Positions 4,043-51,830 of a DNA stretch of 56,023 nt are shown here, one piece after another. Under the pieces are notes generated by a model, which did not search any database, had not been told where the DNA came from, and worked only from the letters and a program-made list of their open reading frames with translations. The translations under genes and the position numbers were made by a program. This DNA comes from Eubacteriales bacterium (GTDB lineage Bacteria > Bacillota > Clostridia > Lachnospirales > Lachnospiraceae). Position 1 is the stretch's first letter, and the number at the start of each line of letters is the position of its first letter. The stretch is from the NCBI GenBank assembly GCA_030533405.1, contig JAUNJF010000023.1, forward strand, positions 1 through 56,023. Direction: 5' to 3'.

Positions 4043-5074
4043 ATGAAAAAAAGAATGATAGCATGTATGGCAATTATGATGGTGACGATTAGCTGTCTGA
4101 CCATTTCGTGGGTCGCAAGAGCGGAGGGACCAGATTCAAACGACAAATCCGTCTCGTTGGATTTGAGAATTGGAGACAAAGAGTATTATGGTGTCAAAGG
4201 AAATGACTACTTTGAGGTTCCAAGTTTGGATGTCATCAAAGACATTACGGTGTTGCAACAGGATGGCGTGGACGTTGAGGGAATGTCATCAAAATGGTCC
4301 ATGTCGACCAAATATTTGGATAATCAGGGCAGAGGTGTGTTAGAGGTACAGACCAATGAAGAGGGTAAAAATTATGTTTCCATTAATCTTTGTTCTCATT
4401 ATGCAGACTGCCCTGGTGCGAAGGTGGATGATTTCTATGTGTTAAATATTACGCTTTACGTTAAGAGCTTCAAGTCTACAGTTTCCATTTATAATGCAGA
4501 TCCTGTTTTGGATGGAGATTCGTTTGATTTTGCGCCAACTTATGTAGATTTGACAAAGACAAGTAAGAAAAAACCTGCAATCGTTACAGATTTCTTCAGC
4601 ACCGTATATATGAATATTGTAGGTGTGCCAGGGGTAAATGATGTTGCTTTTATTAAGCTTGTCAATGATGCAGACAAGAAGTTTGTGACGATTGGTCCAG
4701 AAATTGTATTTAAAAAACCAACAAAAGACATCACATTCCAGATTAAATTAAATGATGGAACAGTCGGATATGTGACGATTCAAAAGGTACCGGACAAGAC
4801 AACCATTAAGAGCTTGAAGGCAACAAAGAAGAGCTTTACTGTAAAGTGGGGTAAAAAGACAAAAAATGTGACAGGATATCAGGTTCGCTATCGTGTGAAG
4901 GGTGCAAGTAAATGGGTAACAAAAACATATAAGAAGAGTTCGGTTGCCTCTGCAACATTCAAGAAATTAAAGAGTGGAAAGACATATGAGGTTCAGGTAC
5001 GAACATTTTTTAAGCGATTTGATGGAAACGTATATTCAGCATTTTCTGCTAAGAAAACAGTGAAGGTAAAGTAG
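4043..5074 (+). CDS. Secreted protein with C-terminal fibronectin III-like domain
   Basis: 343 aa with GGGGAGG ahead of the ATG. Residues 1-28 are a signal peptide (MKKRMIACMAIMMVTIS, cleavage likely after WVARA). Residues 30-250 have no family I recognise. Residues 255-343 form an Fn3-like domain (SFTVKWGKKTKNVTGYQVRYR, SGKTYEVQVRTF), common at the C-terminus of clostridial surface proteins. It is the first gene after the divergent LuxR-type regulator, and the next gene at 5180 is also secreted, so the pair may be co-expressed. Function unknown. Confidence 0.75.
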   Translation: MKKRMIACMAIMMVTISCLTISWVARAEGPDSNDKSVSLDLRIGDKEYYGVKGNDYFEVPSLDVIKDITVLQQDGVDVEGMSSKWSMSTKYLDNQGRGVLEVQTNEEGKNYVSINLCSHYADCPGAKVDDFYVLNITLYVKSFKSTVSIYNADPVLDGDSFDFAPTYVDLTKTSKKKPAIVTDFFSTVYMNIVGVPGVNDVAFIKLVNDADKKFVTIGPEIVFKKPTKDITFQIKLNDGTVGYVTIQKVPDKTTIKSLKATKKSFTVKWGKKTKNVTGYQVRYRVKGASKWVTKTYKKSSVASATFKKLKSGKTYEVQVRTFFKRFDGNVYSAFSAKKTVKVK

Positions 5075-5076
5075 GA

Positions 5077-5153
5077 GGAACACTTATGAAACGAAGTTTC
5101 ATAACTGGAATGTGTTCCGACGACATGGCAGGATTCATGGAATGAATCGTGCC
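5077..5153 (+). repeat. Two-hairpin intergenic element, copy 1 (order A-B)
   Basis: Hairpin A (5077-5120) has outer arms GGAACAC/GTGTTCC and an inner stem TGAAAC-gaa-GTTTCA. Hairpin B (5127-5153) is GGCA-GATTCAT / ATGAATC-TGCC around a GGA tip. Hairpin A is repeated at 8008-8051 with two differences in 44 nt, one of which turns a C-G closing pair into a U-G wobble. The element ends about 25 bp before the start at 5180 and has no T-run, so it is not a terminator. Confidence 0.6.
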
Positions 5154-5179
5154 GATACATTAGACTAGGAGGAATATTT

Positions 5180-10828: not shown

Positions 10829-10855
10829 TTAGGGAGATTGTGATTGGATGAAAAT

Positions 10856-10930
10856 GTAATTGCGAAACTCAATTTAGGTGGTTGAAAGTTATACAATATA
10901 AGTTACATAATTGCGAGTTTCGCAATCACC
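10856..10930 (+). repeat. Palindromic element with AATTGCGAAACTC ends (short copy)
   Basis: The arms GTAATTGCGAAACTC (10856-10870) and GAGTTTCGCAATCAC (10915-10929) are inverted repeats. The left 40 nt follow the long copy at 21403 closely (AATTTAGGTGGTTGAAAGTT), but the central tip is missing. It lies between yaaR and the RBS of holB. Confidence 0.7.
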
Positions 10931-10963
10931 TATTTATATGGAATGAAAAAGAAGGAGATACAA

Positions 10964-16326: not shown

Positions 16327-16618
16327 CAGCGATAAAGACAAAAGCAAAGAAAAGAAGAGTACATTTGGAAAGTTTTTAACAGAGAACCTGAGTGGCTGAG
16401 AACGGGGAAAGATGGAACAGATGGAAGATGGTCTTGGAGCTTCTTGTGCGAGATGATTTATTTAGTGCAAGACGGGAACACCCGTTATAGTGTAAGCTGG
16501 TAAAGGATGTGGAAGCATAGACAAGCCAGTGATGGAGATTTGCATAGTGATATGCAGATGAAGTAAAGTGGTACCGTGAGATAACTCGCCTTTATATGAA
16601 GGGCGGGTTTTTTGTTTT
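16327..16618 (+). promoter_or_regulatory. T-box riboswitch upstream of metG
   Basis: Stem I begins near AGAGAACCTGAGTGGCTGAG (16381). The T-box proper, AAGTGGTACCGTGAG, is at 16566-16580. It is followed by a terminator (ACTCGCC / GGGCGGGT, 16583-16608) with a T-run to 16614. Uncharged tRNA should pair its NCCA end with the TGGTACC bulge and stop terminator formation. The downstream gene predicts a Met (AUG) specifier; several ATG triplets lie in the stem I region and I cannot assign one by eye. Confidence 0.9.
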
Positions 16619-21386: not shown

Positions 21387-21395
21387 GTAAGATAA

Positions 21396-21612
21396 ATCTA
21401 AGTAATTGTGAAACTCAATTTAGGTGGTTGAAAGTTGTACCATATAAACAAATCCAAGTTGGGTCACTTTCGTTTAGTTACGAATGTAGCGATACATAAG
21501 GTAGCAAAGTACGCTACCTAAGTATCGACATTCGTAAATATCCCAACTTAGATTGTTGTTTATATGGTACAACTTTAATCTACATAATAGAGAGTTTCAC
21601 AATTACCTAGAT
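21396..21612 (+). repeat. Full-length palindromic element with structured tip (copy 1, 217 bp)
   Basis: The ends ATCTAAGTAATTGTG and CACAATTACCTAGAT are inverted, followed inward by paired arms (GTTGTACCATATAAACAA / TTGTTTATATGGTACAAC; CCAAGTTGGG / CCCAACTTAG). The tip folds as ACGAATGT/ACATTCGT, an AG bulge, CGATAC/GTATCG, an ATA|AA internal loop, AGGTAGC/GCTACCT and the loop AAAGTAC (21506-21512). It lies between glycerate kinase and the GH120 gene. There is no coding potential and no T-run. Confidence 0.85.
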
Positions 21613-21638
21613 TAACATATTATTAAGGAGGGTTACAG

Positions 21639-44273: not shown

Positions 44274-44330
44274 TAATCTCCACGAAAAATACATAAAGAC
44301 CGCATAATAAATCCATAAGAGATTAGTAGT

Positions 44331-44398
44331 ATAAAATTGCGGAACTCAGTAAGTATTTAACAAAAAAATATACGTGATTGAGAGTTTTGCAATTTTAT
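44331..44398 (+). repeat. Palindromic element (AATTGCG family), wobble-rich copy
   Basis: AAAATTGCGGAACTC (44333-44347) pairs with GAGTTTTGCAATTTT (44382-44396), with two G-U pairs in the middle. The interior is unrelated to the other copies. It ends six bases before the SD of the next gene. Confidence 0.6.
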
Positions 44399-44417
44399 AT
44401 TGATAAGGAGAATAAAG

Positions 44418-48809: not shown

Positions 48810-49946
48810 ATGTTTGAGGTATTAGGAAGAAAGTTATTAGGAGAGAAGGGAAGAAATGCAGTACGAAATGTTTTTGTTGCATTTGTTGTGTATATGGGTC
48901 TTTCCAACTTGGAATATCAGGTGAATGTGTCATTACAGGTTTTGTTGTTCACCAATTTGTTTTTTTCAGGAACTATCATTTTGCAGGTGCTTTCTTCTCA
49001 GGATAATGCCAGATATTTAAAAGGGTTCTTCTCTATGCCATTTGACGAGAAAAAGTTTTTTATTGGTTACGCAGAAGTGATTGGCGCGTATACATTGTTT
49101 ACAAAGACCGCTTTAGTGCTAGCTCTTATATTTGCATTTGGTAAGGTGACAGCATTACAGACTATGATTTTGATGGTTCATTTTGTATATGTATGTTTTG
49201 CAGCAATGATTGTTTTTGCGTTTTTAAAGGATAGAATTTATATTTCTGCATTGATTCTTTCTCTTAGCATTGTAGCTTGTTTTGTGCTTCCAGAGCATGG
49301 ATTTTTAATTGTTGTGTATGGGATTGCATGTGGAGTGATGGCTTTTGTGTTAAGCAAATTGGATCCATATCGTTTTATGGTAAAGGAAAGCCATTTGAAA
49401 AAGGCAAAGAAAGTAGCTAATGCGTCAAAATTTATGGTGACAAAATATATTCTTCGCTATCTCTTATCCAACAAAGGTTATGTGCTTGGAGGACTTTTTA
49501 TGATTGCATTTGGCTGTTTCTTTGCAAAGTCTATGGAAGAGGTTGGATTTTCAAATACTTGCGGATTTGCAATGGCTTTGCTTGCAGTAAATACACCACT
49601 TGCTATCGTTGTAAGCACCAATCGAGTATTGAAGAAAAAGTTGGAAATGATGCCAGATTCCATAAAAGGATTTTTTGTTCCTTATGCAGGATTTTTGTTT
49701 GGTTATTATATGTTATCTTATGTCATTTTTCTTGGTGTGATGCGTATACTGGGAACAGAATTACATTTATCAACTTTTGTGATGGCAATCGCATTTGCAT
49801 TGCAGGCAGCTATATTGGTTGCTACACTCGAGAATAGATGGACGATTGAAAATTGGAAGGTAGAGTCGGATTTGTTGCATCATCCAAGAAAATATATTGC
49901 GCCAGCGATTTTGATGGTGGAGGCATCGTTGTTGCAATTCTTGTAA
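48810..49946 (+). CDS. ABC transporter permease
   Basis: 378 aa from the ATG at 48810 (TAGGAGTGAG upstream). About nine to ten hydrophobic helices, starting at about 18-38, with a basic cytosolic loop (HLKKAKKVANASKFMVTKY) in the middle and a second helical bundle after it. No sequence family beyond ABC-2-like permease is evident. It is the membrane partner of the ATPase upstream. Substrate unknown. Confidence 0.85.
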   Translation: MFEVLGRKLLGEKGRNAVRNVFVAFVVYMGLSNLEYQVNVSLQVLLFTNLFFSGTIILQVLSSQDNARYLKGFFSMPFDEKKFFIGYAEVIGAYTLFTKTALVLALIFAFGKVTALQTMILMVHFVYVCFAAMIVFAFLKDRIYISALILSLSIVACFVLPEHGFLIVVYGIACGVMAFVLSKLDPYRFMVKESHLKKAKKVANASKFMVTKYILRYLLSNKGYVLGGLFMIAFGCFFAKSMEEVGFSNTCGFAMALLAVNTPLAIVVSTNRVLKKKLEMMPDSIKGFFVPYAGFLFGYYMLSYVIFLGVMRILGTELHLSTFVMAIAFALQAAILVATLENRWTIENWKVESDLLHHPRKYIAPAILMVEASLLQFL

Positions 49947-51472: not shown

Positions 51473-51597
51473 TGCACTGGATAAAGTCTGATAGGTCTTT
51501 TCATCGTCTAGTGTAGTATCTGAAGTGTAAATGTATAAACATTTCTATATCAAATATTAACACTAGACAATTACTAATTGTTTGGTGTTTTTTTTAT
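51473..51597 (+). promoter_or_regulatory. Transcription attenuator with alternative hairpins
   Basis: Strand 1 (51473-51482, TGCACTGGAT) pairs with strand 2 (51506-51515, GTCTAGTGTA). Strand 2 GTCTAGTGT can instead pair perfectly with strand 3 ACACTAGAC (51560-51568). Strand 3 also belongs to the terminator AACACTAGACAATT / AATTGTTTGGTGTT (51559-51589), a 14-bp stem with loop ACT and a run of T. This gives exclusive 1:2+3:4 (off) and 2:3 (on) states. Confidence 0.75.
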
Positions 51598-51600
51598 TTT

Positions 51601-51805
51601 AGTAATTATGCAATTACGTGGATGATGAAAATTGGTTTCATACCTAACATATATATTTTGCACACACTCTCGTTCGTTTCGAACGTAGCAGTACTAATGT
51701 TTCAAAGTACGAAACATAAGTACTGACGTTCTCAAACGGTGACAAAATATATATCATTAGATACGAACCCAAATTTATTAACAACTTGAAAATTGCATAA
51801 TTACT
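51601..51805 (+). repeat. Full-length palindromic element with structured tip (copy 2, 205 bp)
   Basis: The 15-bp ends AGTAATTATGCAATT and AATTGCATAATTACT are perfectly inverted. Inner arms include ATATATATTTTG / CAAAATATATAT. The tip is GAACGT/ACGTTC, an AG bulge, CAGTAC/GTACTG, a TA|AA internal loop, ATGTTTC/GAAACAT and the loop AAAGTAC (51704-51710). The tip has the same shape, bulge and loop as the copy at 21396, although the stem bases differ. It begins directly after the attenuator T-run. Confidence 0.85.
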
Positions 51806-51830
51806 GAAATAGTGGGAGTAGGAGGATAGA

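Follow-up and report, generated by a model that had tools for sequence, protein, structure and literature searches.

Two places of a contig from a Eubacteriales bacterium, 56,023 nucleotides long and called the window hereafter in its whole length, can be folded into hairpin tips whose three stems differ in sequence while staying paired. A sequence-only reading had taken this compensatory change around a fixed loop for the mark of selection on an RNA or single-stranded DNA structure. We asked what these tips belong to and whether their covariation points to RNA or to DNA.

Two palindromes of the window and their folded tips

By reading the sequence directly, we could confirm that every stem of both tips pairs as proposed (Table 1). 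We also found that the tips are the centers of palindromes of 219 and 217 bp. Element 1 has a glycerate kinase gene on one side and a GH120-like gene on the other, and element 2 sits upstream of an acetyltransferase gene. The unpaired pattern had been called identical; the AG bulge, the AA on the right and the loop AAAGTAC are indeed common to both tips, but the left internal loop has three nucleotides in tip 1 (ATA) and two in tip 2 (TA). The box reported upstream of the stem is present in both as well, and hides a covarying mini-hairpin of 2 bp. Two shorter, tip-less derivatives also lie in the window, the first of them flanked by a DUF327 gene and by a gene whose product has a domain of the DNA polymerase III delta type.

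Table 1. Positions in the window of the two elements, their parts and the short derivatives
Feature	Position	Strand	Basis or remark
Element 1, complete palindromic element	21395..21613	+	219 bp; inverted repeats I1 and I3; own-genome repeat family
Element 1, left terminal inverted repeat	21395..21416	+	95% complementary to 21592-21613
Element 1, right terminal inverted repeat	21592..21613	-	TA adjoins end motif on this side in 12/17 end pairs
Element 1, left middle arm	21420..21451	+	partner 21556-21587, 88% complementary
Element 1, right middle arm	21556..21587	-	inverted-repeat partner of 21420-21451
Element 1, conserved tip with foot stem AAGTTGGG/CCCAACTT	21456..21549	+	R1 and R2 matches 21456-21546; foot stem read off the sequence
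Element 1, box	21465-21474		direct sequence reading
Element 1, mini-hairpin AC-TTTC-GT within box	21466..21473	+	columns 13-20 and 14-19 covary above all null values
Element 1, three-stem tip	21480..21535	+	sequence read, pairing counts, covariation
Tip 1, stem 1 ACGAATGT/ACATTCGT	21480-21487/21528-21535		
Tip 1, bulge AG	21488-21489		
Tip 1, stem 2 CGATAC/GTATCG	21490-21495/21522-21527		internal loop beyond it: ATA opposite AA
Tip 1, stem 3 AGGTAGC/GCTACCT	21499-21505/21513-21519		
Tip 1, loop AAAGTAC	21506-21512		
Element 2, divergent palindromic element	51595..51811	+	217 bp; inverted repeat I6; R1 and R2 matches
Element 2, box	51665-51674		direct sequence reading
Element 2, mini-hairpin AC-TCTC-GT	51666..51673	+	sequence read; family covariation
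Element 2, three-stem tip	51681..51731	+	sequence read; R2 match 51656-51743, E 1.8e-14
Tip 2, stem 1 GAACGT/ACGTTC	51681-51686/51726-51731		
Tip 2, bulge AG	51687-51688		
Tip 2, stem 2 CAGTAC/GTACTG	51689-51694/51720-51725		internal loop beyond it: TA opposite AA
Tip 2, stem 3 ATGTTTC/GAAACAT	51697-51703/51711-51717		
Tip 2, loop AAAGTAC	51704-51710		
Tip-less short derivative with element 1 ends	10848..10937	.	inverted repeat I8; DNA match 10856-10901
Tip-less short derivative with related ends	44323..44406	.	inverted repeat I7; end motif at 44336 and 44382

That the tips are real beyond chance is supported in two ways. First, a covariance model (R2) built on 85 tips from pattern-scan records of other genomes, none of them identical to a tip of the window's own genome, matched the window at exactly two places, tip 1 (E 5.7e-21) and tip 2 (E 1.8e-14). 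Second, the folding z-scores of elements 1 and 2 as single strands were -14.0 and -7.6, a stability that none of 200 shuffles equaled; when folded as DNA, both strands were about equally stable. Searching the whole window against Rfam at gathering score gave no match to either element, and a search with element 1 at E ≤ 10 gave six weak matches, all far below the gathering scores. A literature search, carried out largely without subscription journals, found no description of such a palindrome family. With neither an Rfam match nor a paper found in that search, the assertion that the tip belongs to no described family is supported. Elsewhere in the window, Rfam recognized at gathering score a T-box leader (16338-16596) and a GA-cis RNA (5070-5163).

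Distribution of the elements and consensus of the tip

When the window's own genome (3.15 Mb, 94 contigs) was searched at the DNA level, a repeat family emerged, with numerous complete copies and still more incomplete ones, and the end motif of element 1's left terminal repeat recurs throughout this genome. A covariance model (R1) built on 17 own-genome tips, 16 of them distinct, gave 47 matches there, 30 of which at E ≤ 7.5e-6, that is about 30 copies; several of the weaker matches are the palindrome read on the opposite strand, and a few copies lie at contig ends. Among 60 relatives searched, R1 found the tip in 27: in 24 of the 26 genomes of the genus (own included), in three of ten from the family's other genera, where one match was weak (E 0.014), and in none of 24 from other families. 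R2 found it in 127 of 299 genomes across the family, representing 126 of 298 genera, and in 12 of 391 genomes across the class, 11 within the family plus one weak match outside it (G707). The covariance-model search of Lachnospiraceae that had been proposed as a check thus returned many intergenic homologues with statistically supported covariation.

A pattern scan of named genomes retrieved at least 120 stretches with the tip. The 80 listed are L112-L191, and L192-L231 are taken to be the remaining 40. Among the 80, 49 were titled Lachnospiraceae, other titles being Butyrivibrio, Acetatifactor, Falcatimonas and Eubacterium; the family name given here to the carriers rests on these record titles. 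Four contigs with the tip (L115, L133, L144 and L175) are titled as Gastranaerophilales or Bacteroides MAGs and probably are mislabeled or mixed bins. The tip pattern was absent from viral contigs, and element 1 had no match in plasmid or phage collections, from which near records may be absent.

The elements, about 200-500 bp in size, occur as single copies, as inverted pairs a few hundred bases apart and as tandem arrays. In Falcatimonas, 14 of the 27 model matches make seven inverted pairs, and one genome has tandem arrays of four and three copies that include flanking DNA. Estimates of palindrome span are noisy, most genomes in that comparison having one or two copies. The genome G019, with 52 matches, was followed at 19 loci, two of which (L271 and L284) failed to align; most of the 19 lie in palindromes of about 450-500 bp. 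In the complete genome GAM79, seven copies are on the plus strand and six on the minus strand and neither half is enriched, as counted by eye with the origin assumed at coordinate 1 rather than by a formal test, and a replication-strand bias of the elements was dropped on these counts. One element (L399 881-1091, in G020:C4) lies upstream of an sbcD gene at a distance of about 30 bases; the product of this gene together with SbcC cleaves long palindromes. G019 and its sister species G023, which have the longest palindromes, are without an SbcD match over the cut-off, and 16 of the 26 genus genomes have one, including that of the window (G000); this may be one lineage's accident, as other SbcD-lacking genomes carry ordinary elements.

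What is conserved is a center of about 90 nt, around which long inverted arms are free to vary. From the outside in, its constant parts are a foot stem, the box (typically ACGCTTTCGCT, whose four-base loop is closed by a covarying 2-bp stem), a stem 1 about 8 bp long with frequent mismatches in its outer half, a two-purine bulge, stem 2 (mostly CGGTAC/GTACCG), an internal loop with (A)TA opposite AA, and stem 3, in which both sequence and length are variable. Of the 165 unique tips collected, the own genome contributed 18, relatives 24, the surroundings of a Y1 gene one, L112-L231 94, and GAM79 together with Falcatimonas 28. The loop has the format seen in the window in 98 of them, but AAAGTAC itself in only 22 of these 98 and AAAATAC in 30. 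The fixed loop was thus an accident of comparing two copies. Of the two changes that the sequence-only reading had named as speaking against its structure, loss of pairing in the stems and drift of the loop, only the drift was found.

Pairing in the 17 own-genome tips (16 distinct) reached 95.9% of 416 cells, against 81.2% in shuffled controls and at most 36.1% when the partner was slid. In the 16 distinct tips, 18 of the 26 pairs showed a two-sided change (62 cells), and in no cell was there a one-sided change to another standard pair. The idea that the stems change while staying paired is borne out above the phylogenetic null: a phylogeny-aware test, run on the 165 unique tips with our own script modeled on the R-scape null, placed 12 column pairs above every null value in 15 simulations. 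Eight of these are proposed base pairs, four in stem 3, two in stem 1 and two in the mini-hairpin; the other four are neighboring combinations in the mini-hairpin, probably the result of alignment slippage. One alignment (A4) was made to model R1 and hence leans to its structure, and another (A2) was made without R1; some positions of stem 2, of the bulge and of the internal loop were prescribed by the pattern used to collect tips and therefore carry little information.

Between subfamilies the arms show no evident likeness although the tip stays, and the end motif GCGAAACTC is found again in several subfamilies. Among L270-L290, copies that are otherwise alike differ in a four-base block of the arms (GCCGG-NNNN-TCCTGCAT), which frequently but not invariably has a match on the opposite arm. 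Single copies can depart further, such as one whose left arm holds an additional insertion, rich in hairpins and about 75 bp long (L014, C58 about 48843-48919) and another with foreign sequence inside stem 3 (L018/L052).

Covariation at the level of DNA or of RNA

Since copying of one arm from the other at the DNA level also gives paired changes, compensation alone is no proof of selection. As a control for the substitution pattern of the tips we took RNase P of the same family, using 28 of the 30 loci fetched from 40 genomes searched (L374 and L379 were excluded for differing coordinates). Two-sided and one-sided changes stood at 62:0 in own-genome tips, 498:27 in tips of the family and 331:132 in RNase P, that is, at ratios of 18.4 for the family tips and 2.5 for RNase P. 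G-U occupied 0.4%, 2.0% and 8.6% of variable pairs in the three sets, respectively, and the transition-type share of Watson-Crick changes was 0.48, 0.36 and 0.66. Counted on the tree, 297 events in the tips replaced one Watson-Crick pair directly by another, while 39 led to GT and 26 to AC, and the difference between the latter two over all stems is not significant. Cells and tips are non-independent, so that Fisher values overstate certainty. Wobble pairs would likewise disappear if the stem were selected to be a perfect DNA duplex, and template switching is therefore unproven for the tip itself.

To see how arms change in place, we compared G019 with G023, whose flanks are about 97% identical, taking 800 kb of the latter. 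Nine of 30 G019 loci had flank matches in these stretches and the element was present at all nine; none being empty, movement is inferred from copy number only. Only six sites could be aligned, because a contig break runs through L282, and L288 and L290 both correspond to a single rearranged site of G023. In two of the six orthologous pairs the element is inverted in place. The rearranged G023 element (L325 18345-18820) joins flanks lying beside the two G019 copies L288 and L290, which suggests a chromosomal rearrangement between copies. Over 1045 paired positions of orthologous copies, which are about 4% divergent, we counted 57 one-sided changes and nine two-sided changes with pairing kept, compared to 0.5 expected under independence. 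Arms thus break first and are then partly re-matched. Template switching between inverted repeats homogenizes arms and inverts spacers, according to PMC8604942, which also mentions bacterial data in which template switching favored transversions; by analogy, the low transition share of the tips would be in line with such a process. Selection for pairing could add to it, and for the tip it must be invoked, since bulges and loops survive there.

An alternative is that the tip is a structured RNA, intercistronic or small, which would be spread by mobile palindromes and act in the operon transcript. Its strong covariation and strand-specific unpaired motifs would fit this, as would stem 2, which on the tip strand has 29 GT and no AC, a hint that one strand acts, as RNA or as single-stranded DNA. 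The mini-hairpin leans the opposite way (GT 1, AC 9), and in the arms neither kind of mismatch prevails (GT 102, AC 95), which is the pattern to expect when pairing is not required of one strand in particular; of the 192 tips found, 46 had arms aligned well enough for this count, and for 145 a position between genes could be assigned. Within the genus of the window, tips between co-directional neighbors are oriented 27 sense to 5 antisense, which is what an RNA function predicts and speaks against a DNA reading. In other genomes, however, the same count gave 37 sense and 43 antisense, hence no bias, and sense orientation was rejected as a general rule. Both strands fold equally well, too. Because wobble intermediates are few relative to RNase P, arms are strand-symmetric, copies are inverted in place and the sense bias is confined to one genus, we do not favor selection on RNA and consider a structured RNA unlikely. 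The covariation pattern instead points to folded DNA, so that of the two possibilities offered at the start, RNA or single-stranded DNA, we prefer the second. Nevertheless, the genus bias, the GT excess of stem 2 and the asymmetric conserved unpaired bases together suggest that the fold of one strand matters somehow.

Proposed movement of the elements and comparison with known systems

The ends of some elements invite another explanation, in which a TA-targeting DDE transposase moves miniature inverted-repeat transposons by way of their terminal repeats, and the tip is carried along as a passenger or regulates the element internally. The element 1 subfamily has GGTAATTGCGAAACTC-like ends, the exact 16-base form of which occurs in 20 of 26 genus genomes, and among 17 end pairs of the own genome, a set that includes short derivatives and one probably internal match, 14 have TA next to the left end and 12 next to the right one. 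For that subfamily the ends fit a TA-targeting transposase; the short tip-less derivatives share them, and one of the two units in the Falcatimonas pairs has a GCGAAACTC-like end. Elsewhere, the arms and in many subfamilies the ends too show no evident likeness while the tip stays, and no empty site proves a TA duplication, the nine flank-matched sites all being occupied. The widest spacings seen between paired ends were 4.2 and 2.3 kb, and these two pairs enclose a uridine-kinase-like protein, a beta-helix protein and two proteins without Pfam family; Pfam recognizes no transposase among them, and neither pair was taken for an autonomous transposon. This explanation is rather improbable. Recombination of the tip as a folded strand by a tyrosine recombinase, as for an integron attC site, would agree with a folded palindrome that has bulged bases and a variable end. 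The attC core boxes are RYYYAAC/GTTRRRY, and they flank the tip in 8 of 165 cases and in reversed order in 3 of 165, above the shuffled means of 0.7 and 0.8, yet far from conserved, which leaves this hardly probable at all. It is also very doubtful that the elements are REP/REPIN elements mobilized by a RAYT-type Y1 transposase, with GTAG/GTAA before stem 2 as the REP tag. GYAR does stand directly 5' of the hairpin (GTAG 85, GTAA 63, GCAG 13 and GCAA 4 of 165 tips, in a set collected by a pattern that itself required GYAR), and inverted pairs and tandem arrays are REP-like. However, the GY of this tag is base-paired with RC, REPs measure 20-40 bp, and GT pairing, rare here, is frequent in GTAG repeats according to PMC3733652. 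Moreover, the Y1 transposase (PF01797) is found in 13 of the 26 genomes of the genus, with no match in that of the window or in the high-copy G019, so that a Y1/RAYT partner was rejected.

Some neighborhoods were recorded on the way. A 263-residue protein without Pfam family starts shortly after a tip-less element (G009, L394 618-1409). Pairs of model matches 1.1 to 3.3 kb apart (L173, L163 and L131) flank metabolic and other host genes, and at L163 also small helix-turn-helix proteins, one with an HTH_38 plus a MazE-like domain. At L173 (3935-5114), two oppositely oriented elements surround a pantoate-beta-alanine ligase gene, with a ketopantoate hydroxymethyltransferase gene on one side and an aspartate decarboxylase gene on the other.

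The elements are widely distributed, multicopy, and found in tandem arrays and inverted pairs; they covary with scarce wobble intermediates and are inverted in place. With modest confidence, we favor the explanation that they are REP-like, probably mobile DNA elements with arms matched at the DNA level and the tip as a putative recognition hairpin. A protein would recognize the tip as a DNA hairpin, in single-stranded DNA or a cruciform, while the element is copied to new sites, and the arms would be re-matched in replication by template switching or by conversion between both arms. Such recognition would be the reason why the tip is conserved; we favor it because the ends often differ between subfamilies and the tip is common to all. 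Against mobility, no transposase or recombinase is tied to the elements. More tentatively, we propose mobile DNA hairpins throughout the family that do without RAYT, in which a putative enzyme of the host or of the element would recognize the tip as folded single-stranded DNA and copy the element to new intergenic sites, each arm being renewed from the other so that any sequence could serve in them.

These data describe a widespread family of palindromic DNA elements that share a conserved folded tip and apparently have no earlier description; they are carried by Lachnospiraceae, a leading family of gut and rumen. The tips are a case in which strong covariation, the usual proof of a functional RNA, comes with a DNA-level signature, and wobble intermediates, strand symmetry of mismatches and orientation flips offer a practical control when repeat-rich genomes are searched for new RNAs. 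Should the tip be a recognition hairpin, it would be a pointer to a new DNA-processing enzyme. The maintenance of many palindromes of about 450-500 bp in one chromosome is also relevant to the tolerance of bacteria for long palindromes.

Enterobacterial repetitive intergenic consensus (ERIC) sequences and comparable bacterial MITEs are imperfect palindromes of 100-250 bp in transcribed, noncoding intergenic DNA. The elements resemble them as imperfect palindromes without coding capacity, but ERIC sequences keep one consensus throughout, whereas here the tip is kept and the arms are replaced between subfamilies. Like structured RNAs of Rfam, the tips combine covarying stems with conserved unpaired bases; unlike them, they covary without wobble intermediates. 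Integron attC sites (PMC3053210) likewise conserve structure above sequence and have bulged bases on the folded strand and a variable apex, although the elements have long arms and no conserved core boxes. REP and REPIN sequences are dispersed intergenic palindromes occurring as singles, inverted doublets and tandem clusters, according to PMC3116915 and PMC3733652. The elements differ from REP, BIME and REPIN in being larger, conserved in the middle and variable outside, in stems almost without GT pairs, in the Y1 transposase not found in half of the genus, and in a paired tag where the REP tag of RAYT systems (GTAG or CGTC) is unpaired at the end of the hairpin. Still, with short, dispersed intergenic palindromes that are single, paired or in tandem with flanking DNA, and with GYAR before the hairpin, they appear by analogy to work most like REP/REPIN repeats.
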